Source: Syntrophaceae bacterium
GTDB taxonomy: Bacteria; Desulfobacterota; BSN033; UBA1163
DNA length: 64,000 nt
Direction of reading: 5' to 3'
Assembly: GCA_013388635.1 (NCBI GenBank)
Contig: JACAEX010000014.1
Location: forward strand, 1 to 64,000
Part shown: one piece after another, positions 38,877-53,755 of the stretch
How the letters are laid out: each line of letters begins with the position of its first letter
Numbering within the stretch: the stretch's first letter is position 1
The notes under the pieces: generated by a model
What the model saw: the letters and a program-made list of their open reading frames with translations, nothing else
What the model was told of the DNA's origin: nothing
Database searches by the model: none
Program-made: the position numbers and the translations under genes

Positions 38877-40577
38877 TCAAGTCGCATATTTCCTGCGCTC
38901 GCTCAGTTGCGCCTCTGTGATCGGGCTTGGAAGGCACTCCGTGATCACATTGATACAAGCTGGCAATCCGGAATCGAAGGCCCTTTGTAAGGCAGGGGCA
39001 ATATCCTGAGGATCCTCGACCAATTCGCCATAGCCCCCCAGATCCTCTACTATCTTATCATATCGGATCAAACCCAGTTCTGTCCCCACTACCCGCTGAT
39101 CCCCATAAAGACCTATCTGATCGTTCTTGATCATCCCCCAGGCACCGTCGTTGCTGATCACAGCAACGAAAGGGGTCTTATGCCGGACTGCTGTGCTGAA
39201 CTCCATGATGTGGAAGCCGAGGGAACCGTCTCCACTGACTAAGATTACCTTTTCCTCAGGCCTTGCCAGTTTCGCACCGATCGCAAAAGGGATTCCCATG
39301 CCAATCCCTGCTATCGGACCTGTATCGATGAGGCGAGCTGGCCCATAGGCCGGCATACTGATCCGAGCCCACTGCAAAATATCTCCGCCATCCAGGACGA
39401 CCGTGCTATTCCCATCGACCAGTTTACGGACCTCATTACATAGGCGAAGCGGATGGATGGGCCTCTTTGAAGATTCCAGACAGGGTCTCCATTCTTCAAA
39501 AAAGTCACGCTGGTATGAACAGACTCTTGCCATCCAATCCTTCCGGTCGACCGGATGCCTCGGGTCAAAAGCTTCGTTCAACTGTTCCAGCACGATCCTG
39601 ACATCGCCGACAATGCCAATCTCCACCTGCCGGTTCCGTCCAATCTCCTCAGCACAGAGATCGACCTCTATCAACCTGGCCTCCGGATTAAAGGTCGGGG
39701 GCCGGCCATAATTGAGACGGAAATTCAATCTCTGCCCGATCAGCATGATGACGTCGGCCTCCCGGAATGCCCTGGCCGCGCCATTGAGCCTTGCGCTCCC
39801 ATAACCAAAACTCAGCGGATGATCATCTGGAAACACTCCCCGGCCCAGGCCCATGGAGAAGATCGGGACCTGATAGGTCTCTGCAAACTTCTTCAGGGCC
39901 GCACCAGCCTTCGACCATAATGCCCCACCTCCCACAATCACGGCTGGCCTTCTCGCAGATCGTAAAAGTCTGGCAGCTTGATCAACCGTTTCCGGATCCC
40001 CGGCAGGAGGGCTTTCGGTACGGTACTGCCTTGGTTCGAATTCCTTTAGGAGAGAGATATCCACCTTTTTCAATAAGGCATCCTGGGCAAAGCTCAAATG
40101 GACTGGTCCCGGGATTCCTGACATCACCTGGCGAAATGCAATGGCCATGTATTTTGGAATCATGGTTGGATCTGTGATCAGTTTTGACCATTTGGTGATC
40201 CGCCTGACGAACGCAATCTGGTCCATCTCATGCATGGGGCCCATCTCATCATGGACGGCCTCAGAATTTCCGCTGATGGCGATCACACGGCTCAAGGCAT
40301 TCCAGGCAGTGGCTATCCCTGTCAGCGAATTCGTGTGTCCAGGACCAGAGGTGACGGCGGACACGCCAACCCCTCCGGTGATCCGGGACCAGACATCCGC
40401 CATATGGACAGCAGCTGATTCATGACGGGTATCAATCACCCGAATTCCGGTGTCGAGACAGGCGTCGTAAATGGGATCGATCGAACTTCCACAAAGGGTG
40501 AAAAGATACTTCACGCCCTCTTTTCTCAAGGCCTCTGCCACCAGCCTACCACCCGATATCCTGTCCATAGAAAACAT
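38877..40577 (-). CDS. Thiamine-diphosphate-dependent enzyme, acetolactate-synthase-like
   Basis: A 566-residue protein of the POX/AHAS superfamily. The N-terminal PYR domain has YLFTLCGSSIDPI and the activating Glu in TRHESAAVHMADV, the middle domain spans about 195-340, and the C-terminal PP domain carries GDGSLGFHIMEF with Asn in SNDGAWGM, the ThDP/Mg motif. The start reading MFSMDRISGG has GGAGGGAGGA just upstream. Family members include acetolactate synthase, benzoylformate decarboxylase, oxalyl-CoA decarboxylase and others. No small acetolactate-synthase subunit is adjacent, so a catabolic decarboxylase or ligase is as likely. The substrate is undetermined. Confidence 0.82.
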   Translation of the reverse strand: MFSMDRISGGRLVAEALRKEGVKYLFTLCGSSIDPIYDACLDTGIRVIDTRHESAAVHMADVWSRITGGVGVSAVTSGPGHTNSLTGIATAWNALSRVIAISGNSEAVHDEMGPMHEMDQIAFVRRITKWSKLITDPTMIPKYMAIAFRQVMSGIPGPVHLSFAQDALLKKVDISLLKEFEPRQYRTESPPAGDPETVDQAARLLRSARRPAVIVGGGALWSKAGAALKKFAETYQVPIFSMGLGRGVFPDDHPLSFGYGSARLNGAARAFREADVIMLIGQRLNFRLNYGRPPTFNPEARLIEVDLCAEEIGRNRQVEIGIVGDVRIVLEQLNEAFDPRHPVDRKDWMARVCSYQRDFFEEWRPCLESSKRPIHPLRLCNEVRKLVDGNSTVVLDGGDILQWARISMPAYGPARLIDTGPIAGIGMGIPFAIGAKLARPEEKVILVSGDGSLGFHIMEFSTAVRHKTPFVAVISNDGAWGMIKNDQIGLYGDQRVVGTELGLIRYDKIVEDLGGYGELVEDPQDIAPALQRAFDSGLPACINVITECLPSPITEAQLSERRKYAT

Positions 40578-40686
40578 TCCTCCCTCCACCTATATATCAT
40601 GTTTCATCGCCTCCGGCGAGCCCGTTTCCAGTTGCCCAACGGACTTGATAATATCTTACAGGTATCTTCTAAAAAATTAAGCTGTC

Positions 40687-40955: not shown

Positions 40956-41714
40956 ATGAATCTCTTCTCTGAAAAAAGCTGGAACATTTTTCAAGATGCC
41001 CTGGGGCTAAAAGAATCCCCTTTGGGGATCTATTACACCAACGATAAGCCCGAAGGGGTCACACCAGAGACTGGTGTTCACGTCTGTATGATCGGCCTCC
41101 TGAAAAAGGCAAGGAGAAAAAGAAAGACTGTCTTTTTTGATAAGGATCATTTCGGATGTCCTGGGGGCGCTTACTATATGGGATTTCGGGATATGCCCAT
41201 GCCGAACATCGAGTATTTTCTCTCCTGCGGAATTGCAGGAGAGATGGAAGGGGAGCGTTATATTAAAACGCCGGAGCTGGCCAGAGAATTTTTTGCGAAG
41301 ATGAGACCGAGGCCAGCACCGGCAACCTACTGCGTCTTCAAACCGATCGAACAATTTTCGGATGGGATCGAACCCGAAGTGGTTGCCTTCTTTGCTCCGC
41401 CGGATATCCTTTCGGGTCTTTTCACCCTGACCCACTACGCCTTGGAAAGAACGGACGCCGTGCTAACCCCTTTTGGTTCAGGCTGTAGTGCCATTCTTAC
41501 TTATCCCTTGAAAGAGGCTGAAAAAGCGGAGCCCCGTGCGATCCTCGGGATGTTTGATGTCTCTGCAAGGCCGATGGTCGAGAAGGACGTCCTCACCCTC
41601 TCGATGCCCTGTTCCGTATTCTTGAGACTTCTTCAGAATGTCGAAGGCAGTTTCCTTGAAACCAAAAGCTGGAACAAGGTACTTCAGAGGATCCAAAAAA
41701 ATAAGCACCAATAA
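40956..41714 (+). CDS. DUF169 family protein
   Basis: A 252-residue protein with the DUF169 pattern: SPLGIYYTNDKPEG near the start, HFGCPGGAYYMGF in the middle with a conserved Cys, and GSGCSAILTYPL later. The family is widespread in strict anaerobes and is of unknown function; conserved cysteines suggest metal or cofactor binding. GGGGAGGTGA sits before the ATG. No partner gene is obvious. Confidence 0.85.
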   Translation: MNLFSEKSWNIFQDALGLKESPLGIYYTNDKPEGVTPETGVHVCMIGLLKKARRKRKTVFFDKDHFGCPGGAYYMGFRDMPMPNIEYFLSCGIAGEMEGERYIKTPELAREFFAKMRPRPAPATYCVFKPIEQFSDGIEPEVVAFFAPPDILSGLFTLTHYALERTDAVLTPFGSGCSAILTYPLKEAEKAEPRAILGMFDVSARPMVEKDVLTLSMPCSVFLRLLQNVEGSFLETKSWNKVLQRIQKNKHQ

Positions 41715-41850: not shown

Positions 41851-42276
41851 ATGATCTTTTCAGAAACGATCTCCATAAGAACAAAGGGCTTCAGCGATAT
41901 CCTCGATATAACTCCCCATGTGGTTGAGGTCTTAAAAGATTCGAAGATAGAAAATGGGCTTGTCACGATCTTCTGCCCGGGCTCCACTGGTTCGATCACG
42001 ACGATCGAATACGAATCAGGAGTGCTCAAAGACCTCCAGAAGGCGATCGAAAAGCTCGTCCCGTCGGATGTCCCCTATGAACATGACAAACGCTGGGGCG
42101 ATGGCAATGGGTTCTCCCATGTCAGGGCAGCCCTGATGAAACCAGGCCTGACCATCCCTCTGATTCAAGGACGGCTAAGTCTGGGCACATGGCAACAGAT
42201 CGTCTTCATCGATTTTGACAATCGGAGAAGGGAGAGAAATATACTCATCCATGTGATGGGCGATCAAGGAGATTGA
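41851..42276 (+). CDS. YjbQ family protein
   Basis: A 141-residue protein of the YjbQ/UPF0047 family, with FCPGSTGSITTIEYE, DVPYEHDKRWGDGNGFSH, GTWQQIVFIDFD and RERNILIHVMG. Some members have weak thiamine-phosphate synthase activity; the true role is unsettled. A conserved His and acidic residues line the active site. The 3' end overlaps the convergent tctA gene by 13 bases. Confidence 0.92.
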   Translation: MIFSETISIRTKGFSDILDITPHVVEVLKDSKIENGLVTIFCPGSTGSITTIEYESGVLKDLQKAIEKLVPSDVPYEHDKRWGDGNGFSHVRAALMKPGLTIPLIQGRLSLGTWQQIVFIDFDNRRRERNILIHVMGDQGD

Positions 42277-43802
42277 TTCGATTCGGGATGAGATGGGGCA
42301 TGAACAAGACCCCTCCGCAACCTCTTCCATCCCCATCGAATCAGGGGGGAAAGGTAAGCAAGGATGGCAGCGATGACAAAAAATGCGGAGATCGGCCGGG
42401 TGAAGAAGATGGAAAGACTTCCTCCGGAAATGATGAGGGTCTGGCGAAGTGAATTTTCTGACAAATTCCCAAGAACCAAGGCGAGAATCAGCGGAACGAT
42501 CGGATAGTTGAGCTTCCTCATCAAGTAGCCCAATACCGCAAAGCCGAGCATCATCCACACGTCGAAAAGGCTGTTATTGACGCTGTAAGCTCCTACAGAA
42601 GCAAAGATGACAATAAATCCCATGATGATCGTATAGGGAAGACGAAGCAGGGCCACAAAGGCCGGGATCAAGAAGATATTGATCAGCAATAATAGAAAAT
42701 TGCCAATGTACATACTTGAAATCAGGCCCCATACCAGATCAGGCTTGGTCTGAAAGAGTAAGGGACCCGGACGAATTCCCCACATCATAAAACCTGCCAG
42801 CATCACAGCCGTGGTGGGCGATCCCGGAATCCCAAGCGCCAGAAGGGGAGCAAAGCCGCTGATCGAGGCAGCATTGTTGGCCGATTCGGGTGCCGCCACC
42901 CCTTCAATCGCCCCTTGTCCAAAACGTTCAGGATGTCTGGAAGCCCGCTTCTCAGCCAGGTAAGCCAGAAACGAAGCGGTCGTTATCCCTCCAGCAGGAA
43001 TAATCCCTACGAGGAATCCAATGATTCCACCCCGGATAATAGCCCAGCGCGAGGCGATCCAATCCTGCCATGTCAGAAAGAAATCGCGGAGGCGGAATTT
43101 AGACTTCAGCAATTCCCCTTCCTCAGGCTCCTCAATGCTGCAGAAGACTTCGGCAATTCCAAACATACCACAGATGATGACGATGAAATCAAAACCCCCG
43201 AGGAGTTGAGGAACGCCGAAGGCAAACCGGGGCATGCCACTGACCACATCGAGCCCGATGGTTGCGATCAGAAGGCCCAACATGGTCGAGATAACCGTTT
43301 TGACAGGCTGCTCGCCTCCAAAGACCGTGAGGAGGCCAAACGCCATGAGTGTCAGGCTAAAGTATTCAGCCGGCCCGAACCGTAAAGCAAGCTTTGCCAG
43401 TGCCGGCGCAAAGGCCATCAGGATGACGACTGAAATAGTCCCAGCGACAAAGGAACCGATCGCAGCAACCGATAGCGCAGCACCGGCTCGACCCTTAAGG
43501 GCCATCTGATATCCATCGAGACATGTCATCACCGTGGAAGATTCACCCGGAACATTGATCAGCACCGAGGTGATCGTGCCTCCGTAGGCAACCCCGTAGT
43601 AGATTCCCGCAAACATAATCAGCGCTGAGGTGGGATTTGCCTTAAAGGTAAGGGGAAGCAGGAGGGCGATGGCTGTTGGTGCACCAATCCCTGGCAACAC
43701 CCCAATGATCTGTCCGAACAGAACTCCAACAAGGCAATAGATGATGTTATTGAAAGTGAGTGCAATGGAAAATCCGGTATATAAATTATTGAGAAGGTCC
43801 AT
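42264..43802 (-). CDS. tctA: Tripartite tricarboxylate transporter, large permease TctA
   Basis: A 512-residue inner-membrane protein with about twelve helices. It bears the TctA signatures GVLPGIGAPTAIALLLPLTF, GGTITSVLINVPGESSTVMT, and the repeat unit GIIPAGGITTASFLAY with NNAASISGFAPLLALGIPGS. It forms the transport channel driven by ion gradients. It closes the tctCBA operon. Substrates in this class include citrate, other tricarboxylates and aromatic acids such as terephthalate. Confidence 0.95.
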   Translation of the reverse strand: MDLLNNLYTGFSIALTFNNIIYCLVGVLFGQIIGVLPGIGAPTAIALLLPLTFKANPTSALIMFAGIYYGVAYGGTITSVLINVPGESSTVMTCLDGYQMALKGRAGAALSVAAIGSFVAGTISVVILMAFAPALAKLALRFGPAEYFSLTLMAFGLLTVFGGEQPVKTVISTMLGLLIATIGLDVVSGMPRFAFGVPQLLGGFDFIVIICGMFGIAEVFCSIEEPEEGELLKSKFRLRDFFLTWQDWIASRWAIIRGGIIGFLVGIIPAGGITTASFLAYLAEKRASRHPERFGQGAIEGVAAPESANNAASISGFAPLLALGIPGSPTTAVMLAGFMMWGIRPGPLLFQTKPDLVWGLISSMYIGNFLLLLINIFLIPAFVALLRLPYTIIMGFIVIFASVGAYSVNNSLFDVWMMLGFAVLGYLMRKLNYPIVPLILALVLGNLSENSLRQTLIISGGSLSIFFTRPISAFFVIAAILAYLSPLIRWGWKRLRRGLVHAPSHPESNQSP

Positions 43803-43814
43803 GGTTCCCCTCTC

Positions 43815-44261
43815 TCACCACCCGATCAGTCCTTGTGGCAGGGGGATGGTCAGCCAGGAAATAAAGATCAGATGAATACAGATGGCCGTCACCACAGAGG
43901 TAAGGCCGCATGAGGCCCAGTGATGTCTCCCCATGATCCGCATTGTGATACCAACAAAGAGGCCGAGGCCAATCGAAAAACCGAGGAGAGGTAAAAGGAG
44001 AAAGGTGATGAAGATCATGGCCAACACACGAAGGCCCAGCTTTGTTCGGGCCTTGAAGAATACCCCTATCTTTTCGTGTTTCCTAAGGACATTGACGAGC
44101 ACAAACATGGCGCAACCGACAATCACCACTCCCACCCACAGGGGTAAAAACCCTGGGCCTGGACCATACTCGGAATAATAAGGAAGTTGCGAGGAGAAGA
44201 AGACCACTGCCAGTCCCAATAACAGGACGACCACTCCTCCGATGAGGTCAGCCATGCGCAT
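43815..44261 (-). CDS. tctB: Tripartite tricarboxylate transporter, small permease TctB
   Basis: A 148-residue protein with four hydrophobic helices, starting MRMADLIGGVVVLLLG and containing GPGPGFLPLWVG, a TctB hallmark. AAGGAGGA before the ATG at 44261 fixes the start and excludes a 24-residue extension. It stops 12 bases before tctA. Confidence 0.9.
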   Translation of the reverse strand: MRMADLIGGVVVLLLGLAVVFFSSQLPYYSEYGPGPGFLPLWVGVVIVGCAMFVLVNVLRKHEKIGVFFKARTKLGLRVLAMIFITFLLLPLLGFSIGLGLFVGITMRIMGRHHWASCGLTSVVTAICIHLIFISWLTIPLPQGLIGW

Positions 44262-44342
44262 CCCTGTTCCTCCTTGGGAGAGGTTCATCCGCGCCGGAGA
44301 AGTTCCAGACTGCGGGCGCGGATGATCCGTCACTGGAACTTT

Positions 44343-45329
44343 TTACTTCAGGAGTCCCAGATCTTTCAGAATCTCTTTCGACTCCGCCTCATTCTGAGCC
44401 ACGATCTTGGCGAACTCCTTGCTTCCCATCCAGCCCGGGCTGAGCATATACTTCTTCAGATATTTCTCCTTCCACGAGGACGATTCTGCCATGCGCCTGA
44501 ACATGGTCTCGTAAAAAGCTGCGGCTTCGGCAGGGATGTCAGCTGGGGCTGCAATCCCCCGGTAGAAGAAATAGGTCACATGATGCCCCAGCTCTTTAAA
44601 CGCTGGGACGTCCGGAAATTCCGACATCCGGGAGGTCCTGGCAACGGCCAGAGGGCGCACCATTTTGGCCTCCCACTGGGGCACGAACTCAGGCGGGTTG
44701 GCCCAGATCATATGAACGTGTCCCCCTAAGAGCGCGGTGATACACTCTCCCCCGCTCTTAAAAGGTACGTATCGAAGCCGAATCCCTGCAGACCGTTCGA
44801 AGAGAGACTGGCAGATCTGGTCATCCTGGCCACTGCCCGTTCCTCCAACGGTCAGCTCTCCGGGACGTCGCTTTGCCTCAGCAATGATGTCCGTTATGTT
44901 TTTAAAAGGTGAATCGGTCTTCACCACGATCAACTGCTCGTCCAGGGCAAGATTGCAAATCAATGTGAGCTCGCGGAACGTGGGCGCTCCCTTCCCCGCC
45001 ACCAATGCCGCCTGGGCCTGGCCAGGGATGAAGGTCAAGAGGACGTGGGGGTTGCCACGTTGCTGAACGACCGATGTCGTTCCAATCAGCCCGCTCCCAC
45101 CAGGCCGGTTGACAACGACCAAGGGCTGGGGACAGAGCTTCTCGCCCTCGATGATGCTGGCAATGGACCGAGCTAAGACATCGCTTCCACCTCCTGGGGC
45201 ATATGGGGCCACAAACTCAATCGGCTTGGTGGGCTTCCATTCCGCAGCCGTGCTCCAAATGGGAAGGGCAAATAGTAAGATCGACATGACCACTCCAACC
45301 TCAAACCACTTCATCCCATTTCTTCTCAT
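44343..45329 (-). CDS. tctC: Tripartite tricarboxylate transporter receptor TctC
   Basis: A 328-residue periplasmic solute-binding protein (Bug/TctC fold) with a signal peptide cleaved near IWSTAA. The mature part begins KPIEFVAPYAPGGGSDVLAR, the family's ligand loop, and includes GSGLIGTTSVVQQRGNP and VGGTGSGQDDQICQSL. AAAGGAGGG precedes the ATG. Bug proteins bind diverse carboxylates, so the ligand remains open. Confidence 0.94.
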   Translation of the reverse strand: MRRNGMKWFEVGVVMSILLFALPIWSTAAEWKPTKPIEFVAPYAPGGGSDVLARSIASIIEGEKLCPQPLVVVNRPGGSGLIGTTSVVQQRGNPHVLLTFIPGQAQAALVAGKGAPTFRELTLICNLALDEQLIVVKTDSPFKNITDIIAEAKRRPGELTVGGTGSGQDDQICQSLFERSAGIRLRYVPFKSGGECITALLGGHVHMIWANPPEFVPQWEAKMVRPLAVARTSRMSEFPDVPAFKELGHHVTYFFYRGIAAPADIPAEAAAFYETMFRRMAESSSWKEKYLKKYMLSPGWMGSKEFAKIVAQNEAESKEILKDLGLLK

Positions 45330-45412: not shown

Positions 45413-47101
45413 TTACCTCCTCCCAAGGCTTTCCATGACCATCCTCGCCTTCTCTGTAGATTCCATCTTCTGTGTCACCACATGAAGCCTTGCCCCAAAC
45501 CTCTCCTCACAGAATGTGGCCAGGCCATCCATCGTCTTCCGACTTCCGGTCACAGGAAGAAACGGCCAGAAATAGGTTGGAATTCCCATGGCCACGGTCC
45601 AGGCTGCCCTGACCACTGCCTTGGCCCGGTTGGCCTCCGGAAAACAAGCAACCACCGGAAGTTCTCTGATCGCTTTCTTCCCTGTATTGGCCAGAGAGAT
45701 GAGAAAATCGGAAACCGTGCCGTTTTCGCAACTTCCAAGATCGACGACGGCTGGAAAGTTCTTTCCAAGGGAGGAGAGAAGGCTTAACAATCCCTTTCCA
45801 CAACTGGCCTCCCGCTGTTTTGGGTTGAGCAGACCGTATTTGGCTAAGCTGACACTGGCACATCCCTCTGAGAGGCAGAAAACGTCGTTCCTCAGCAGAG
45901 TCCTGGCGATTGAGATAATCTCTTGGTCCTGCGTGAATTTGACGTTATTACAGCCAGCCAGAAGAACGATCCCCTTGATCTTCCCCTGACCGAGGGCCTC
46001 CACGACCTTTTTTAAGGTAAGATCCTTTATCGAAAAGCCCATCACTGCAGACTCCTTAATCCCCGGGATATCCATGCTCCCTTTTTCGCGACGGGTATGA
46101 TATTCCTCCTGAGCCCGTTCCACAATTTTCCGGGCCAGGTCTGAAACTTTCCCTCTATTCAGGATCTCCGTCGAAACCACTCCTACTTTATAGAGGCTGG
46201 CCAGCTCCATTAAGGATGGATTGACACACTGATCTCCGGCCACGACCAGGCTGACCGCTCCGGTCATCAATGGAACTTCTTGAGAACCATAATTGGTCAC
46301 AGCCGGAAAGGTATAAGGAGGTAGAAACGGGTCTGTGCAGACGCCCAAGATATTGACCTTCTTCCCTTTTGCCGCCTCTGCGATCCTCCGTTTCAAAAGG
46401 GGTGAGAAATGGCCGTAGAGGATGATATTGGCCGTATCCTTTTGGAGAGTGCCGAAATTGACCTCGACCTCTGAGGCCCCGGGCTCACCGAAGACCGCGG
46501 TCTTCAATCTTCCTTGAAGGATCTGCGCAGCGCAACCGGCCAGGGCAGCCTTAAAGGCCCAGAGAAGGGTATCCTCAACCGTCCCGGTTCCGCCATCCAG
46601 CTTCTGAGAGACCTTGAAGAGGGCCCTGCCCATGCCATCTGGATAGATATCCATCTTCTTCCAGGTCTCAAACAAATTTTGGGGAAACCTCTTCATGGCA
46701 TCTGTGGCGCCATCTTCCAGGAAGCTTCGAATCTCCTTCAAAATCCGCTTGGTCTCCTCCCTCCTTTTCGGAGAAACCTCTCCAGCCCCAACCCCTCTAA
46801 CAAAATCGGAGAGCTGATCCAAATATCCCATCGCACCCTGAAGGACCAGCCTCAAAAAGGAATGAACCCCCAGGACATCCTTATCCTTTCCGCAAACCCC
46901 CACCTTGTTCTGATCCCGAAAGGGATGACTGATGCAGGGTCCCTGAAGACAGTCCCGGCAGTTCAGCCCTGTCTCACAAAATCCGCACTGGGGAAGTGAG
47001 TCTTCATAACGATCCCATACCAGGGAAACACCCTTTTCTTCGGCCTCCCTTAGAAAATGCTCGACCGCGCTATCGGCCGTCTTTCTCTGTACAAACTCCA
47101 T
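45413..47101 (-). CDS. CooS-like Ni-carbon-monoxide dehydrogenase, divergent
   Basis: A 562-residue homologue of the catalytic subunit of anaerobic CO dehydrogenase, shorter than the usual 620-640. B-cluster cysteines C48, C51, C56 and C70 are present (GLNCRDCLQGPC, KVGVCG). The D-cluster region differs: C39 and C42 form C-x2-C (QCGFC) while the usual second Cys next to C48 is Asn47. Likely C-cluster ligands are His231 (YGHFSP), Cys255, Cys292 (DQCVNPS), Cys384 (AGCNNVK), Cys414 (SEGCAS) and Cys458 (LGSCENG). The histidine-rich segment near residue 93 that relays protons in known enzymes reads QGAMGYLDQL, without His. It ends an operon with CooF-like and FAD partners. Real CO oxidation is uncertain. 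Confidence 0.85.
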   Translation of the reverse strand: MEFVQRKTADSAVEHFLREAEEKGVSLVWDRYEDSLPQCGFCETGLNCRDCLQGPCISHPFRDQNKVGVCGKDKDVLGVHSFLRLVLQGAMGYLDQLSDFVRGVGAGEVSPKRREETKRILKEIRSFLEDGATDAMKRFPQNLFETWKKMDIYPDGMGRALFKVSQKLDGGTGTVEDTLLWAFKAALAGCAAQILQGRLKTAVFGEPGASEVEVNFGTLQKDTANIILYGHFSPLLKRRIAEAAKGKKVNILGVCTDPFLPPYTFPAVTNYGSQEVPLMTGAVSLVVAGDQCVNPSLMELASLYKVGVVSTEILNRGKVSDLARKIVERAQEEYHTRREKGSMDIPGIKESAVMGFSIKDLTLKKVVEALGQGKIKGIVLLAGCNNVKFTQDQEIISIARTLLRNDVFCLSEGCASVSLAKYGLLNPKQREASCGKGLLSLLSSLGKNFPAVVDLGSCENGTVSDFLISLANTGKKAIRELPVVACFPEANRAKAVVRAAWTVAMGIPTYFWPFLPVTGSRKTMDGLATFCEERFGARLHVVTQKMESTEKARMVMESLGRR

Positions 47102-47177: not shown

Positions 47178-47651
47178 TCAGAAGTCCCGATTTGGAGCAA
47201 ATCCGTACCAGGCAGACCCTTCTTCACGATCCTCCACGACCAGTGCCCGGGTCGGGCAGACCTCCACACAGATGGGATATTCCATGTGACGACAACGGTC
47301 GCATTTCACGGCCACATGCATTTCAGAGGATGGGGCGATGACGCCAAAGGGACAGACCATCACACACATCCAGCAGGCGATGCAGCTGGGCTCATGGACA
47401 TAGACCAGACCTGTCTGCGGATCCCTGCGCATCGATCCGTTCGGACAGGCGTCGACACAGGGCGCGATCTCGCAATGGCGGCAGTGCAAAGGATAAGAAT
47501 TTCCGTCCACATGGACACGGGGGACGGGTTGGGGCGTCTCCAAAATGGCGCTGTTCAGTTCCTTTGAAACTGATCCAATCTCCACTCCGCACCAGAAATC
47601 GCATGTATGACACTGAGTGCACTTTTCCGGATCGACTTTGATCACCTTCAT
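47178..47651 (-). CDS. CooF-like polyferredoxin
   Basis: A 157-residue electron carrier of the CooF/HycB type with four cysteine clusters. The first reads CTQCHTCDFWC; then come HCRHCEIAPCVDACP, CIACWMCVMVCPFG and a final CDRC, paired with CVEVCP. It would move electrons between the CooS-like protein and the FAD oxidoreductase encoded on either side. AGGAGGAAGAG precedes the ATG and only nine bases separate it from the upstream gene. Confidence 0.92.
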   Translation of the reverse strand: MKVIKVDPEKCTQCHTCDFWCGVEIGSVSKELNSAILETPQPVPRVHVDGNSYPLHCRHCEIAPCVDACPNGSMRRDPQTGLVYVHEPSCIACWMCVMVCPFGVIAPSSEMHVAVKCDRCRHMEYPICVEVCPTRALVVEDREEGSAWYGFAPNRDF

Positions 47652-47660
47652 CTCTTCCTC

Positions 47661-48959
47661 CTAAGCTTTTGATGCGGCGAACCGCTGGGTAAGTTCTCTG
47701 TATTCGACCTCGGTGAATTTTTCCTGGTTCTGCTTCACCAGGGGCAAGAGCTCTGCAAAATTGAGCCTCTTGCTCAAAAGGAAGGGAACAACCCCTGAGA
47801 CGTCAAGCTTCTTCCTCATCAGCATGGTCAAAACACCGGCCTTTTGAACCTGACCGACGAGAATGGCCCCGACCAGACGGCCCCCTTTTAGAACGATCTT
47901 CCGGTACATCTCCTTCCCCGAAGCACGAAACTCCTGGTACCCAGGCCCTTCGGATCGCGTGATCCCCATGGAGATCACGGGAAGGCCGAAAACGTCGAGT
48001 GAGTTCATTCGGAAGGAGCCCTCATACTTCGTTTCACGACCTGCCATGTTCAAACCGGCTACACGGCCCTGCTCAAAGGCCACAGGCCAGAGGGCATTCA
48101 CATTCGTCCTCTCCCAGCAGAGATCATAGGTCTCGGCAACGTCCCCGGCGGCATAGATGTCCGGAAGATTTGTTCTCATCCTTTCATCCGCGAGGATCCC
48201 CTCCGCGGTTTTGATCGATGTGGACGAGACGATTTCGAGATTGGGTTCGACGCCCTTGCCCACCACCACCATCTGACAATCGATCTTCTCTCCATTGTCG
48301 AGGACGATGCTCTCCACAAACTCTCCCCCTAAGATCTTCACCGCGTTTCGGCCTGTGATGACATCGATCCCTCTTTCCTGCATCCGTTCCCGGACGAGGG
48401 TCGAGGCTTCCAGATCCAACATCTGAGAGAGGATCCGATCCGAGGCGATGATCAATTTGACCTTCAATCCCCGAAGCGAAAGCGCATAACCGATCCGGAT
48501 CCCGATCAAACCACCGCCTAAGATGCATACGGGTGTGGGTTTGACGAGATGCCTGACCATGGCTTGGGCATGCTCTAAATTCCTCACCACAAAGACGCCC
48601 TTCTTCTCTTTTCCGGGAATGTCCATCAAGTTCGGCCAGGCGCCTGTAGCGATCAACAACCTATCATAGGGATGGTCTCTTCCGTCCTCCGTCCGGATCG
48701 ACTTCGTCTCAGGAGAGATCTTCTCCACCTTCTGGCCTAAGTGGGCCGTCACCCTGTTCTCCTTGAAAAAATCGAGGGGTCTGAAATGGAGTTGTTCCTT
48801 GGAGAGAATCTCGGCAATATAGTAGGAGAGCAAAACCCGAGAATAGACCGGAGTATGCTCCCAGGTGAAGAGTTGAATCTCAGAGGTGGGGTCCACGAAT
48901 CGGATCGCCTCTGCGGCGCTTATTCCTGCGGCGCTTCCTCCAATGATGACGTATCGCAT
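47661..48959 (-). CDS. FAD-dependent NAD(P)H oxidoreductase (CODH-associated type)
   Basis: A 432-residue two-dinucleotide-binding-domain flavoprotein: FAD motif YVIIGGSAAGISAAEAIR at the N-terminus, LLIATGAWPN, NAD(P) motif CILGGGLIGIRIGYAL and the second FAD motif IYAAGDVAE. It resembles NADH-dependent rubredoxin or nitrite-reductase-like reductases. Together with CooF and CooS it matches the cooS-cooF-FNOR layout known from several anaerobes, where electrons pass between CO dehydrogenase and NAD(P). AAGAAGGAG marks the start. Confidence 0.92.
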   Translation of the reverse strand: MRYVIIGGSAAGISAAEAIRFVDPTSEIQLFTWEHTPVYSRVLLSYYIAEILSKEQLHFRPLDFFKENRVTAHLGQKVEKISPETKSIRTEDGRDHPYDRLLIATGAWPNLMDIPGKEKKGVFVVRNLEHAQAMVRHLVKPTPVCILGGGLIGIRIGYALSLRGLKVKLIIASDRILSQMLDLEASTLVRERMQERGIDVITGRNAVKILGGEFVESIVLDNGEKIDCQMVVVGKGVEPNLEIVSSTSIKTAEGILADERMRTNLPDIYAAGDVAETYDLCWERTNVNALWPVAFEQGRVAGLNMAGRETKYEGSFRMNSLDVFGLPVISMGITRSEGPGYQEFRASGKEMYRKIVLKGGRLVGAILVGQVQKAGVLTMLMRKKLDVSGVVPFLLSKRLNFAELLPLVKQNQEKFTEVEYRELTQRFAASKA

Positions 48960-49054: not shown

Positions 49055-49699
49055 TCAATATCGGTTGACCACGTAATAGGGCAGCATCTCCCGGAGCAGT
49101 TTTGCGGCCCGTGTCAGGTTGAAATTGCCACAGGTGCAAGCCTTGGCCATCTCCAGACAGGCCTCCTCGACCGTTCTGCGTCCCTTCTTAATATCCCGGA
49201 GCATCTTTCCAACCAGATCGTTTGCAATCATGGCATGGCCGCACATGGTCGTGATCTTTAACACATCGTATTCTGGCAACCTCTCGGTCTTCCCCCATGT
49301 GCCCATGGAATACTCGACCGTATGGATACGGCCGAGCCCTGCCTCATACATCATCTCCTGGACGATATCGGTGACGCCCGAGACCGTGATCGAAATCCCG
49401 GGTCTCTTCTCCTTCAGCTCTTTGAGCAGGGCGACCACCTTTTCGCGGCTGTCGTAGGTCACCTGAACGATCGTCCCATCGGTCACCCGGGCCAGGATGT
49501 CATCGATGGTCGTATTGTAAATGTTCCCTGTCTTCATATCGCCTTCGTTAATCGGTCCGTGCGTATAGGCGATCCGCAGATACTCTCGCGTCTTGGGCGC
49601 AGATCCCTTCTTATTCACGCCGGTGGCAGGGCAGCCGATCACCACAAAATCGTCCTTCAGACTCTCTCGATCGCCTCTCCGATGCAGACTGTGCGTCAT
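49055..49699 (-). CDS. Uncharacterised 214-aa Cys/His protein, copy B1
   Basis: No family recognised. It has a paralogue of identical length at 52272-52916. Shared features are an N-terminal LHRxG, GxNxxGSAPKxREYL (about residues 27-40), NxGxxxxGNI, a central GISIxxSG, the segment VEYSMGTWG...RLPE and two cysteine motifs near the C-terminus: TMCGHAM and CTCGNFNLTRA. These two Cys/His groups could bind a metal or cluster. There is no signal or membrane segment. It lies 11 bases after the ferredoxin-fused gene A1 and upstream of the FAD/CooF/CooS genes in a likely single operon. AAAGGAGGAGG precedes the ATG. Confidence 0.75.
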   Translation of the reverse strand: MTHSLHRRGDRESLKDDFVVIGCPATGVNKKGSAPKTREYLRIAYTHGPINEGDMKTGNIYNTTIDDILARVTDGTIVQVTYDSREKVVALLKELKEKRPGISITVSGVTDIVQEMMYEAGLGRIHTVEYSMGTWGKTERLPEYDVLKITTMCGHAMIANDLVGKMLRDIKKGRRTVEEACLEMAKACTCGNFNLTRAAKLLREMLPYYVVNRY

Positions 49700-49710
49700 G
49701 ACCTCCTCCT

Positions 49711-50466
49711 TTATCCCTGGTTGTCATAGAACTTGAACTGAGGTTCTCCAAGCCCTACGTTGTTTTTGCTGTTGATCGAATACCAATAACCCAGCTTCTT
49801 GAGAATCGGGATGATCGGAACCTCTCCCTCTGGAGGTACCTTTGAGATGATCTCCACTGAAAAGACTGTATCGACCTTCTCCGCCGCCTTCTTGATAGCC
49901 TCTAAGACCTTCGGAAGACTTTCCAGCTTACACTTCCCTTCGATGATGGCAGAGACCGCCCTTTCGTTGAGCACATCGTCCCTGAGTTTCCCCATCTTCC
50001 TGTCCGACATGAACTGGGTCACAGGGTTCTCCTCCGCGAACTCGTATCCTAAGGGGGCCAACATCTTTGCCACGATCTCCACATCCCGGAAATAGGCCCC
50101 TACCCCTGGCCTTCCCAACTCAATGCCGACGCCGACCTCTCCCGGACGAAATCGTCCGGTGACGTCATTGGTCTTCATCTCCTCGGTCCCACGGCCGGGG
50201 ACCTGAGACCCCTTATATTCAATGAGAGGGTTGCTCAACACGGCCCTGACTTCTCGTGGCCAAGGCTCTGCAGGCTGATAAAGGGCATTGACCGGACAGA
50301 CCTTGGCCCGATAGCACATGCCACAGTCGGTGCACTTATCCTGGTCAATCTCGATATAGACCCTTCCCGGGATCTTCTCGTGCCGGCGAAGGATCTGGAT
50401 CCTCCCCATTGGGCAGTAGGGAAAACACCTCTTGCAACCGATGCACCTGTCGTCACGAACCCTCAT
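49711..50466 (-). CDS. Ferredoxin-domain fusion protein, copy A1
   Basis: A 251-residue protein. The first 65 residues are a two-cluster ferredoxin: C8-C11-C14-C18 (CIGCKRCFPYCP) and CTDCGMCYRAKVCP. The remaining 185 residues form a domain I do not recognise, with GRGTEEMKTNDVTGRFRPGE, ELGRPGVGAYFRDVE, ENPVTQFM and VLNERAVSAIIEGK. The same domain occurs in the 269-aa protein at 51459-52268, so both pairs A1-B1 and A2-B2 derive from a duplication. It is probably a cytoplasmic redox partner for a substrate-binding domain. It is 45 bases downstream of the GntR regulator with GAGAGGAGG before its ATG. Confidence 0.78.
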   Translation of the reverse strand: MRVRDDRCIGCKRCFPYCPMGRIQILRRHEKIPGRVYIEIDQDKCTDCGMCYRAKVCPVNALYQPAEPWPREVRAVLSNPLIEYKGSQVPGRGTEEMKTNDVTGRFRPGEVGVGIELGRPGVGAYFRDVEIVAKMLAPLGYEFAEENPVTQFMSDRKMGKLRDDVLNERAVSAIIEGKCKLESLPKVLEAIKKAAEKVDTVFSVEIISKVPPEGEVPIIPILKKLGYWYSINSKNNVGLGEPQFKFYDNQG

Positions 50467-50511
50467 AAGAACCTCCTCTCAAATCTCTCACCTCTCCTAA
50501 AGAAGAATTCC

Positions 50512-51198
50512 TCAATCTTTAAAAAGGGCCTGAATCGCATCTTGCTTGGCCTCTTCAATATGTTCTCGCATCACCCGCTCACAGAGCTCGGGGTCTCTTA
50601 ACTTCAGGGCCAGAACGATCTTCCGATGGCCATCGATCGTCCTTCTCACTCCATCGGGATATTTCAATGTATTCCTCCGGTACCTCAGGGCATACTTTCT
50701 CACGTTCACCATCAACCGATGAAGCCGGTGTTTATCCGTGACCATCTGATGGAGCGTGTCGTGAAATTTTGTATTCCACCTGTACACCTCGTCGGTCCTT
50801 CCGTTCCTCAAGGCATCCTCTGCCTTTTCAATAAAGACGTTCAGTTCTTCGAGGTGCCCATCGGAAATCGTTTGAGAGATCACCCTCAGCGCATAGCCCT
50901 CCAGGACGGCACGGATCTCAAACAGCTCCTCTACCTCCTCCTTTGAATCGCGAGAAACAATGAATCCCCTCGTTTCAAGAGGTTTGACCAGACCCTCCAG
51001 CTCTAACTTATGGAGCGCCTCTCGGACCGGCGTCCGGCTGACCCCTGTCTCCCTGGCCAAATGCTCCTCTGCCAGCCTCGTTCCTGGATCGAAACGGCCA
51101 GAAAGGATGGCCGACTTCAGATATTCGTACACCTTTTCTCGAACAGGCAGACCTTTCTTTCGGCTGATCTTTCTAAGGGATCGCAAAATTGTATCCAA
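50512..51198 (-). CDS. GntR-family regulator, FCD type
   Basis: A 228-residue regulator with an N-terminal winged helix (VYEYLKSAILSGRFDPGTRL; VSRTPVREALHKLELEGLV) and a C-terminal helical FCD domain (FEIRAVLEGYALRVI; KFHDTLHQMVTDKHRL; REHIEEA) whose Asp/His residues bind a metal and an organic-acid ligand in relatives. The start is TTG at 51198, with a good promoter 20-50 bases upstream. It heads the minus-strand operon and faces a divergent promoter for A2-B2, so it likely controls both and itself. Confidence 0.9.
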   Translation of the reverse strand: MDTILRSLRKISRKKGLPVREKVYEYLKSAILSGRFDPGTRLAEEHLARETGVSRTPVREALHKLELEGLVKPLETRGFIVSRDSKEEVEELFEIRAVLEGYALRVISQTISDGHLEELNVFIEKAEDALRNGRTDEVYRWNTKFHDTLHQMVTDKHRLHRLMVNVRKYALRYRRNTLKYPDGVRRTIDGHRKIVLALKLRDPELCERVMREHIEEAKQDAIQALFKD

Positions 51199-51224
51199 TC
51201 CAGAGCCAATTAAAAAGCAGAGCT

Positions 51225-51253
51225 ATTCTAAAGTCCGTTCTGCCAAATGTCAA
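51225..51253 (-). promoter_or_regulatory. Promoter of the GntR-CooS operon
   Basis: Minus-strand TTGACA (51253-51248), 17-base spacer, TAGAAT (51230-51225). Predicted transcription start is about 20 bases before the regulator's TTG start codon. Confidence 0.7.
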
Positions 51254-51396
51254 GAAAAAATTTTTTTAAAAATTATTATTAAATTACAAAATGTTACAGA
51301 TATATATGAAAAATTCGCCTTATACCGAAGACAAAGACAACTCCGCGTGAGCCCTCGAACACACCCTGTTTTTGGATACAAATTCGGCAAATGCTA

Positions 51397-51426
51397 TTGA
51401 CAGACTAAAAAGGTGAATCGTATAAT
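51397..51426 (+). promoter_or_regulatory. Promoter of the A2-B2 operon
   Basis: TTGACA (51397-51402), 18-base spacer, TATAAT (51421-51426), both hexamers at full consensus. Predicted start near 51433, about 26 bases before the A2 ATG. Such strength implies it is normally held off by a repressor, for which the adjacent GntR protein is the natural candidate. No obvious GntR palindrome was found by eye. Confidence 0.8.
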
Positions 51427-51458
51427 TTTGCATTCCCCATTTTGAGAGTAAGATCCGG

Positions 51459-52268
51459 ATGGAAATTGATAAAAAGAAATGCGTGGGTTGTGGAAACTGC
51501 CATGCGGTATGCACCATGGCTGCGATCTACCTCGACGAGGACGGAAAGTCTGTCGTCAACCAGGATGAGTGCGTGGAGTGCGGGAACTGTTATAGGGTGC
51601 TCCGAAACGAAGGCTATCGCCCCTGGTTCGTCCGGTTGATTCGAAAGATTCTCTCCTCCCTTCGATTGGGTTATCTGGCCGAAGTGGATGTCTGTCCAAC
51701 CGGCGCGCTCACGCCGCGCCAGCTCGATTGGCCGAGGAGCCTTCGTGCGGCCTTCAGTGATCCCTCTACCGTCCATCCGGGCACAGGCGTATCCGGCAGG
51801 GGAACAGAAGAGATCAAGAGCAACGATGTCACCGGAAGGGTCCGGAGAGGAGAGGCTGGCTTGGTCGTTGAGATCGGCAGGCCTGGCATTGGTGCCCATT
51901 TCAGGGATGTGGAGAAGGTGGCCATGGCCATGGCCAGGCTGGGGGTCGCCTTCGAACCGATGAATCCTGTCACCCAGCTGATGGAGGATGAGAAGACCGG
52001 AAAGATCAGGGAGGAGGTTCTTAATGAAAAAGTCCTCTCCGCGATCATCGAGATGAAGGCGGAGTTGAAACGAATCCCCGAATTTTTAAGGGAACTGGAA
52101 AAGGTTCAGGGCGAGGTGGACACCGTGATCAGTGTGGGGGTTGCCTCCAGATGCCTTCCCGACGGGACCATCCCCCACGAGGGGTGGGTGAAGAAGACGG
52201 GCTATACCCCCTCACCCAATGGCAAGACGAATCTCGGCCTGGGCAGGCCACTGTTTCGGGAGGATTGA
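51459..52268 (+). CDS. Ferredoxin-domain fusion protein, copy A2
   Basis: A 269-residue paralogue of the 251-aa protein at 49711-50466. The first cluster is CVGCGNCHAVC, followed by T in place of the usual P. The second begins CVECGNC, but its fourth cysteine (VDVCPTGAL) comes only after an insert of about 30 residues, rich in Arg and Leu (PWFVRLIRKILSSLRLGYL), that may be a membrane-touching amphipathic helix. The C-terminal domain repeats GRGTEEIKSNDVTGR, EIGRPGIGAHFRDVE, MNPVTQLM and VLNEKVLSAIIE. Transcribed from a consensus promoter and followed three bases later by B2. Confidence 0.78.
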   Translation: MEIDKKKCVGCGNCHAVCTMAAIYLDEDGKSVVNQDECVECGNCYRVLRNEGYRPWFVRLIRKILSSLRLGYLAEVDVCPTGALTPRQLDWPRSLRAAFSDPSTVHPGTGVSGRGTEEIKSNDVTGRVRRGEAGLVVEIGRPGIGAHFRDVEKVAMAMARLGVAFEPMNPVTQLMEDEKTGKIREEVLNEKVLSAIIEMKAELKRIPEFLRELEKVQGEVDTVISVGVASRCLPDGTIPHEGWVKKTGYTPSPNGKTNLGLGRPLFRED

Positions 52269-52271
52269 GAG

Positions 52272-52916
52272 ATGACCAATACTCTCCACCGACAGGGGAC
52301 AATCGAGAATCTAAGAAACGACTATGTGATCTTTGCCTACACCGCCAAGGGGATCAACCGTGAGGGATCAGCACCGAAGCTTAGGGAATTCCTGAAAATC
52401 TGTCTGAAGCATCATCCGGTCAATATCGGCAATAGCAGGCAGGGCAATATCCACCAGGACGATATCGATATCGAGCAACTGATTCTCAATCAGGGAGACG
52501 GTGAGGGAGCTATGGCTGTCTTTACGGACCTCGATACCCTTCGGAAGGTGGTTGAAGAACTGATCCAGGCAGACCTGGGAATCTCGATCAACATCAGTGG
52601 GCTTTTGAAAGAAGTCAACGAGTGCTGCCAGAAGGCGGGGATTCAGAGACACAGTGTGGAACAGTCCCTCGGTTTCTGGGGGGCAAGGGATCGACTCCCC
52701 GAGAGAGAGATCTTGATGTTTCACACGATGTGCGGCCATGGAATGGTCTCCTTCAACCTGATTCGGAAGATGATCGAATATGTGAAGCTGCGGCGGTTGA
52801 CACCGGGGGAGGCCTCCAAGATCATGGCCAAATGTTGCGAATGCGGGGCCTTCAATCCTCTCCGTGCTGAGATGCTTTTGGAGAAGGTAAGAAAAGGGGA
52901 GAGGGAGACGAGGTAA
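52272..52916 (+). CDS. Uncharacterised 214-aa Cys/His protein, copy B2
   Basis: Same length as B1 and clearly paralogous: LHRQG, GINREGSAPKLREFL, NIGNSRQGNI, GISINISG, VEQSLGFWG, RLPE, TMCGHGM and CECGAFNPLRA. It has extra cysteines (NECCQKAG and AKCCECG) absent from B1. Start ATG follows GGGAGGATTGAGAG and is three bases after the A2 stop, so A2 and B2 are translationally coupled. The repeated A-B pairing implies that the two proteins act together. The function is unknown. Confidence 0.75.
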   Translation: MTNTLHRQGTIENLRNDYVIFAYTAKGINREGSAPKLREFLKICLKHHPVNIGNSRQGNIHQDDIDIEQLILNQGDGEGAMAVFTDLDTLRKVVEELIQADLGISINISGLLKEVNECCQKAGIQRHSVEQSLGFWGARDRLPEREILMFHTMCGHGMVSFNLIRKMIEYVKLRRLTPGEASKIMAKCCECGAFNPLRAEMLLEKVRKGERETR

Positions 52917-52942: not shown

Positions 52943-53755
52943 TCATTTGAAAAGGATATAGATGCTGATCAGGATGACGAAGAGGGCGAAGAGCTTTCTG
53001 AGAAGAAAGGGATGGGTTTTAAAGGAGACATAGGCACCGACTCTTGCCAAAAAGACCGTGCCCAAGGCAAGGGCCAGGCCTCGCTGAATGTCAACAAAAC
53101 CGAGGCTCCATTGGATCAGATCGGGATGGCCCATCCCATTCACGATATACCCCGTGACCGAGAACAGAGCCGTGATGACAATGGCTGCACTGGACGTTCC
53201 GATCGCCAGTTTTAAGGGCATGTTCAGAATTTGATACATCATCGGCACGGTCACCACACCTCCCCCAATTCCAGCCAGAGCAGAGACGACTCCTGCGACC
53301 AATCCTACCCCGACGAGGCCGGCTGTTTTGGGCCTCTCCTTTAACTCAAATTTCTTCTCCGCTTTCGCTCTGCTCTCGGTGAGCATCCGGATCGCGGCTG
53401 CCATGACAATGATCGCAAAGGCAACGCGCAAATGCCTTCCGCTCAGGGCCGCCGCCAAGCGCGCGGCGCCGAGGGCTGTCAGGGCGCTTGAAAACCCGAT
53501 GGTAAGGACCGCTCGCCAATCGACATTGCCCTGTTTTCGATGTTGATAAGCGCTGGCCACCCCACTGAAGACGACGACCAGGAGGCTGGTCCCGATGGCC
53601 GTATGAGTCAATACCGATGGGGAAACATTTGAATACTCGTAACTCAGGATCAGAATGGGCACCATGACAAATCCTCCGCCCACTCCGAAAAGACCGCCGA
53701 GAAACCCCACCCCGCATCCCATCATCACGAAGACTAAAATTTCACTCAGTGCCAT
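52943..53755 (-). CDS. TauE/SafE family membrane exporter
   Basis: A 270-residue protein with about eight membrane helices arranged in two repeats, each starting with the family motif: GFLGGLFGVGGGFVMVPIL (about residues 17-35) and VSALAGIGGGVVTVPMMY (about 157-174). Family members move sulfite, sulfoacetate or other organosulfur and organic anions across the inner membrane. It converges on B2 with 26 bases between the stops; a link to the A-B modules is only positional. Confidence 0.9.
   Translation of the reverse strand: MALSEILVFVMMGCGVGFLGGLFGVGGGFVMVPILILSYEYSNVSPSVLTHTAIGTSLLVVVFSGVASAYQHRKQGNVDWRAVLTIGFSSALTALGAARLAAALSGRHLRVAFAIIVMAAAIRMLTESRAKAEKKFELKERPKTAGLVGVGLVAGVVSALAGIGGGVVTVPMMYQILNMPLKLAIGTSSAAIVITALFSVTGYIVNGMGHPDLIQWSLGFVDIQRGLALALGTVFLARVGAYVSFKTHPFLLRKLFALFVILISIYILFK

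Follow-up and report, generated by a model that had tools for sequence, protein, structure and literature searches.

Does a gene cluster that resembles a carbon monoxide dehydrogenase (CODH) cluster serve CO oxidation when two proteins of no known family stand beside it? The question is raised by a 64,000-nucleotide stretch of a Syntrophaceae bacterium genome (contig JACAEX010000014.1, hereafter the window). Two copies of a two-gene module, A-B, are found here around a gene for a GntR/FCD regulator. One copy, A1-B1, is followed by genes for an FAD/NAD(P) oxidoreductase (FNOR), a CooF-like ferredoxin and a CooS-like protein. We find that A and B are an undescribed protein pair and that their CooS partner is not an ordinary CODH. 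With a confidence a little below an even chance, we propose that one branch of the CODH superfamily lost its catalytic Ni-Fe-S centre repeatedly and came to serve, for electron transfer or as a scaffold, in a previously undescribed A-B oxidoreductase that is widespread in anaerobes and handles glyoxylate-type 2-hydroxy/2-oxo acids. The genes concerned are the following, with coordinates and strands of A1-B1, the regulator and A2-B2 exactly as given in a preliminary description of this DNA.

49711-50466, minus strand: A1, 251 aa, two-[4Fe-4S] ferredoxin domain and new C-terminal domain (Pfam ferredoxin matches, alignment)
49055-49699, minus strand: B1, 214-aa partner protein (87-sequence alignment, model)
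51459-52268, plus strand: A2, paralogue of A1, 269 aa, second cluster motif interrupted by an insertion
52272-52916, plus strand: B2, paralogue of B1 from another B subfamily (identity, B tree)
50512-51198, minus strand: GntR/FCD regulator, opening the minus-strand operon (Pfam)
47661-48959, minus strand: FNOR (nearest curated family PadH)
47178-47651, minus strand: CooF-like multi-[4Fe-4S] ferredoxin of the HydN/DmsB type (Pfam/NCBIfam)
45413-47101, minus strand: CooS-like protein with a clade G-1 signature (family matches, alignments)

A and B are an obligate and undescribed pair

Relatives of B are encoded at 298 or more places in GTDB contigs, of which the best 80 were examined. B directly follows A for 117 of 128 B genes, stop and start often overlapping. 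The remaining 11 are found at contig ends, at a separation of 227-235 bp or as extra copies. Among the carriers are Desulfobacterota, Bacillota, Dehalococcoidia, Synergistaceae and a bathyarchaeon. A and B are one obligate unit, widespread in anaerobes. A tblastn search of plasmids with B gave no match. The genome of the window contains four A-B pairs in total. One, on contig C23, has a GntR gene upstream and an aldehyde ferredoxin oxidoreductase (AOR) gene downstream. Another, on contig C18, lies with genes of the 3-hydroxyisobutyrate dehydrogenase and D-2-hydroxyacid dehydrogenase families.

In A1, Pfam ferredoxin matches are confined to residues 1-67. The N-terminal part of A is a 2[4Fe-4S] ferredoxin, with two CxxCxxC motifs and the distal cysteines present. 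Cluster I is absent in about 13% of A homologues; all four cysteines of cluster II are invariant in 85 sequences. The invariant polar set of the same sequences comprises R71, RGT.E.K 92-98, GRP 118-120, N147, S172, E176 and K234. In B, an 87-sequence alignment shows C153, G154, H155, C188, C190, G191, N194 and R197 to be invariant.

The preliminary description could name no family for the C-terminal domain of A or for B, and our searches agree. Both are below every cut-off in Pfam and NCBIfam, and a PDB sequence search with the B profile found no match. The AlphaFold models are confident (pLDDT 93.7 for B and 90.6 for A). Foldseek against the PDB gave no fold at E<=0.001 for either model, only ferredoxin-fold fragments and no global match. 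Weak Pfam matches of B to SWI2_SNF2, DUF659 and Zn_ribbon_Com fall short of the cut-off and are not shared by B1 and B2; they were set aside as chance. A literature search found no paper describing A-B or CODH pseudoenzymes, and none of the searches made placed A-B in a characterised enzyme. Apart from the ferredoxin part of A, this undescribed protein pair matches none of the families or folds of Pfam, NCBIfam and the PDB.

Several loci carry more than one copy. In the genome of Desulfosporosinus lacus DSM 15449 (locus L070; G059:C15:56805-74718), several B paralogues are present, among them truncated copies and a short form of 180 aa, and the 18 kb also contain a second short CooS. A similar case is seen in G061:C68. 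Four Dehalococcoidia operons (L043, L050, L028, L035) contain tandem A-B copies with a LarA-like racemase, a TIM-barrel isomerase and GlcD/CCG genes, as well as glyoxylate carboligase-like or glycerate kinase genes. In an Erysipelotrichaceae metagenome-assembled genome (L060:8328-16136), A-B is found among putative carbamate-kinase-like and allantoinase-like genes.

A CooS partner unlike an ordinary CO dehydrogenase

The window CooS is 562 residues long and scores 280 bits with TIGR01702, against a cut-off of 478. In a phmmer alignment to CODH-II, His93 is replaced by Tyr and Cys295 by Thr; H261, C333, C446, C476, C526 and K563 are retained. The type III D-cluster motif CxxC(x5)C is present as CGFCETGLNC. 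The C-cluster positions read H,T,C,C,C,C and the acid-base sites Y and K, as given for group G-1 in Table 2 of Inoue et al. 2019 (PMC6344411). Without His93 and Cys295, the window CooS does not have the full set of C-cluster ligands and catalytic His/Lys expected of a functional CODH. CO oxidation as the purpose of the cluster was rejected on inspection of these ligands.

The C-cluster is altered more deeply in other A-B-linked CooS proteins. All four B-cluster cysteines are kept in 33 out of 33, and C333, C446, C476 and C526 are lost together in 21 of them. These 21 include proteins of isolates, such as D. lacus DSM 15449. In all of ten Bacillota proteins, C446 is replaced by G, C476 by N and C526 by E. 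In the Desulfobacterota branch without C-cluster, position 476 is always E, Q or D. Because the pairwise ratio of nonsynonymous to synonymous substitution rates is about 0.1-0.2 in the pairs tested, the CooS proteins without C-cluster are selected proteins rather than decaying genes. In a tree with CODHs of related genomes only, the A-B-linked CooS branch separately from the clade of full-length CODHs (support 100/100). We tentatively count at least two losses of the C-cluster; the number is tentative because long branches meet and the deep order of these proteins is unsure. In the CooS multiple alignment the C295 column is misaligned for canonical CODHs, and this site was read from the phmmer alignment and the published table.

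CooS linkage and the published CODH record

Linkage was measured in 59 related genomes not chosen for A-B, and in 20 further genomes chosen for carrying the locus. In the 59 relatives, 13 of 15 reduced-length CooS homologues are adjacent to B, versus 0 of 40 full-length CODHs. The two non-adjacent short CooS lie 1.0-1.4 kb from their contig starts. With the 20 genomes added, the figures are 35/40 and 0/69, the added set being biased towards adjacency. Neighbours of A-B are not random: compared with distant genes of the same loci, CooS (p 6.6e-7), FNOR (3.6e-7), CooF (8.3e-5) and AOR (0.025) are enriched. Most A-B loci are without CooS, often with only transporters.

Group G-1 of Ni-CODH clade G consisted of one protein in the 2019 survey, which asked for more sequences (PMC6344411). 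The window CooS shares with it the type III D-cluster, H261, T at 295, four further cysteines, Tyr for His93 and Lys563, and both proteins are encoded near FNOR and CooF. In contrast to that single protein, many of the relatives found here have no C-cluster at all; the sections of the survey available to us do not mention A-B. Other published surveys discarded sequences in which C-cluster cysteines were mutated, or did not include clades G and H (PMC8776680, PMC13240472, PMC13056359), so that the linkage of CooS to A-B was invisible to them. Clade G thus gains its missing gene context.

FNOR-CooF-CooS is a recognised CODH cluster (PMC6344411), known from clade C and others. The window has the same three adjacent genes, but its operon adds A-B and organic-acid transporters, and its CooS is reduced in length as well as altered. 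CODH-V (clade D) and the hybrid cluster proteins also combine the CODH fold with an altered active site and are reported inactive on CO. However, CODH-V retains a hybrid iron cluster, whereas many A-B-linked CooS lack the cysteines that such a cluster would need. That selection maintains CODH homologues devoid of the catalytic centre bears on functional change in the CODH/hybrid cluster protein superfamily. As a caution, A-B-linked CooS genes should not be annotated as CO dehydrogenases.

Probable electron partners of A

At two loci (L031, L056), A is fused to a GltD-type protein in which a domain scan finds Fer4_20 and Pyr_redox_2. A third fusion (L061), identified by sequence likeness, is near-identical to that of L056. 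At L075 a GltD-like protein is encoded by its own gene, close to the A-B pair. In the window, the best curated match of FNOR is PadH of phenylglyoxylate:NAD oxidoreductase (272 bits, cut-off 475), and CooF also matches PadI of this enzyme. Both matches are below the curated cut-offs, however, and the locus has no 2-oxoacid:ferredoxin oxidoreductase subunits. The gene fusions and the neighbourhood suggest that electrons enter or leave the pair through A.

Two ancient paralogous pairs

The two pairs of the window have the same gene order, with 47% identity between A1 and A2 and 39% between B1 and B2, which bears out the paralogy proposed earlier for both genes around the regulator. In the B tree, B1 falls within a clade of 16, all CooS-linked. 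B2 groups with four homologues of related genomes that lie near BhcA-like, GlcD/GlcF-like or TRAP genes. A recent duplication of A1-B1 into A2-B2 is ruled out by this tree, in which the pairs belong to separate B subfamilies. The two pairs are ancient paralogues. CooS linkage is limited to the B1 type; the B2 type is found with a GlcD/GlcF-like oxidase, a BhcA-like aminotransferase and TRAP or Tct transporters. The divergent arrangement recurs in G008 (L159), where A2-B2 is followed by a GlcD-GlcF fusion. Because of the B-tree placement, the neighbours and this recurrence, the two pairs are likely co-regulated yet differently wired.

The preliminary description had proposed a ligand-controlled redox system in which two variants of an A-B complex feed or draw electrons, with the A-B pairs joined to CooS genes. 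A redox role of an uncharacterised A-B complex is supported by the obligate pairing, the fusions of A to flavoproteins and the FNOR/CooF/CooS linkage. Control by GntR/FCD is supported by the conserved operator pairs described below, and organic-acid genes lie around A-B. Two variants serving CooS genes are not supported, since the B1 type alone is tied to CooS. Absent from that description were the genome's two other A-B pairs, the altered active site of CooS and the paired operators.

In A2-type proteins, the second ferredoxin cluster motif is interrupted by an insertion of ~29 residues (51465-51700 in the window).

Operon layout, promoters and paired operators

Downstream of B1, the FNOR, CooF and CooS genes were found as expected. 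The same operon runs on through a Tct transporter, giving a minus-strand set of nine genes from 51198 to 42264 (GntR/FCD, A1, B1, FNOR, CooF, CooS, TctC, TctB, TctA). The plus-strand set is A2 then B2, 51459-52916. A 260-bp intergenic region separates the two divergent sets.

44343-45329, minus strand: TctC solute-binding protein (Pfam TctC 8.9e-35)
43815-44333, minus strand: TctB small membrane subunit (position and clustering with TctB genes)
42264-43802, minus strand: TctA large membrane subunit (clusters with genes matching PF01970)
51189-51198, minus strand: operator-like palindrome TTGGATACAA, copy 1 (pattern search)
51372-51381, plus strand: operator-like palindrome TTGGATACAA, copy 2 (pattern search)
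51225-51253, minus strand: sigma70-type promoter-like site for the GntR-A1-B1 operon, 11/12 (consensus match)
51397-51426, plus strand: sigma70-type promoter-like site for A2-B2, 12/12 (consensus match)

The regulator named in the preliminary description is confirmed by its Pfam domains, FCD (1.7e-23) and GntR (6.1e-18). The back-to-back promoters also hold, the plus-strand site being a full TTGACA-18-TATAAT. The palindrome TTGGATACAA has only two copies in the whole window even when one mismatch is allowed. Both are exact and 183 bp apart, and the TTG start of the GntR gene overlaps copy 1. A degenerate form, TTGKATMCAA, is paired at 174-196 bp in 15 unique loci, with a typical distance of about 186 bp before A-B operons in relatives. 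The 59 whole genomes contain 10 such pairs, 8 of them directly before A-B, and a reversed-pattern control gave 0. The ninth lies about 5 kb from A-B in G041 and the tenth at a TctABC/GntR/BhcA-like locus of G014. The conserved spacing suggests a looped repressor at the paired operators.

At L024:3259-3442 and L056:1378-1563, an operator pair lies between IlvD-family dehydratase and GntR-CaiB-ATP-grasp genes, away from A-B.

Substrate clues

Genes that recur near A-B encode TctABC or TRAP transporters, GntR/FCD regulators, a GlcD/GlcF-like oxidase, LarA, glycerate kinase, and tartronate-semialdehyde-reductase-like and GhrA-like proteins. A BhcA-like aminotransferase (443 bits, cut-off 650) and a glyoxylate carboligase-like enzyme (750 bits, cut-off 791) are also found. 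Taken together, these neighbours suggest 2-hydroxy/2-oxo acids, with glyoxylate as a hub. A sulfonate substrate is possible, given the nearby TauE exporter. We know of no A-B in the beta-hydroxyaspartate or glycolate oxidase pathways. Clusters of these pathways (BhcA, GlcDEF, GlcC/GlcR) resemble A-B loci in having a BhcA-type aminotransferase, a GlcD/GlcF-type oxidase and an FCD-type GntR regulator, but the BhcA-like match near A-B stays below cut-off. GlcC and GlcR are FadR-subfamily regulators (PMC11323563).

Proposed function and alternatives

The case is in our judgement evenly poised for A-B being a two-subunit Fe-S oxidoreductase that acts on a small 2-hydroxy/2-oxo carboxylate, has exchangeable electron partners and is controlled by GntR/FCD. 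The ferredoxin clusters, together with a conserved polar pocket, would belong to A, and in B an additional metal or [4Fe-4S] site is probably bound by C153, H155, C188 and C190. A glycolate/glyoxylate-type substrate would fit best, imported by TctABC or TRAP. Electrons would pass between A-B and its partners: for A1-B1, the NAD(P)-linked FNOR, CooF and the CooS-like subunit; at other loci, the GltD-type flavoprotein fused to A, or AOR. The CooS-like subunit, presumably no longer a CODH, would have kept its electron-transfer B-cluster and play an electron-transfer or scaffold role. The regulator may act at the two operators, controlling both A1-B1 and A2-B2 according to substrate.

Several observations weigh against this proposal. 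A-B has no relative of known function, and the three cysteines of B may bind zinc. Some catalytic role is possible for the window CooS because 5/6 C-cluster ligands and Lys563 are kept. Glyoxylate is a tendency and not a rule, because the contexts of A-B are diverse (PanB, CaiB, HMGL and allantoin-type genes) and no single carbon-metabolism family was significant alone in the enrichment test near A-B. G014 has the operator, the transporter and the BhcA-like gene, yet its assembly contains no A-B.

The resemblance to a recognised CODH cluster (PMC6344411) and the retention of H261, C333, C446, C476, C526 and K563 in the window protein would fit a working CODH, with A-B as extra ferredoxin-type helpers passing electrons from CO to FNOR/NAD. 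We consider this highly improbable: the window protein has neither His93 nor Cys295, CODH-V with Glu at 295 reportedly does not act on CO (PMC13240472), all four C-terminal cysteines are gone in 21 of the 33 linked proteins, and A-B stands without CooS at most loci. Alternatively, the CooS-like protein could be the catalytic part, with a new active site where the C-cluster used to be, A-B being only an electron supplier. The conservation of replacement residues within branches (G/N/E in Bacillota; E, Q or D at 476 in Desulfobacterota) and the purifying selection argue for it. Nevertheless it is unlikely, since these residues differ from branch to branch and since A-B, which in most contexts has no CooS beside it, must do something in its own right.

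Fe-S dehydratases have a cluster with one open site. The three invariant cysteines of B could hold such a cluster, and aldolase or dehydratase genes occur at several loci, as would suit a non-redox lyase or aldolase-type enzyme with a structural ferredoxin domain. The fusion of A to NAD(P) flavoproteins, the linkage to FNOR, CooF and AOR, and the invariance of cluster II make this quite unlikely. The recurrence of CODH-like proteins, AOR and LarA beside A-B could also indicate a maturation or protection factor for metalloenzymes. That is very unlikely, as some A-B pairs have only transporters or NAD-dependent enzymes for neighbours, and others lie beside CooS proteins in which no metal site is left to mature. 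A ligand-controlled redox module is favoured, and the ordinary CODH reading is not. The two-gene family occurs at no fewer than 298 places in genomes of anaerobes, with a regulator, operators and partner modules that make the substrate directly testable.

Other genes around the locus

Three further genes of the window encode a thiamine pyrophosphate enzyme (38877-40589), a DUF169 protein (40956-41714) and a 141-aa conserved protein (41851-42276), upstream in the window. The latter two directly precede A-B-CooS in L006, L007 and L010. A TauE/SafE-type exporter gene (52943-53755) adjoins A2-B2. In L006, L007, L010, L156 and L158, a homologue is the last gene of the GntR or A-B operon or lies beside it.

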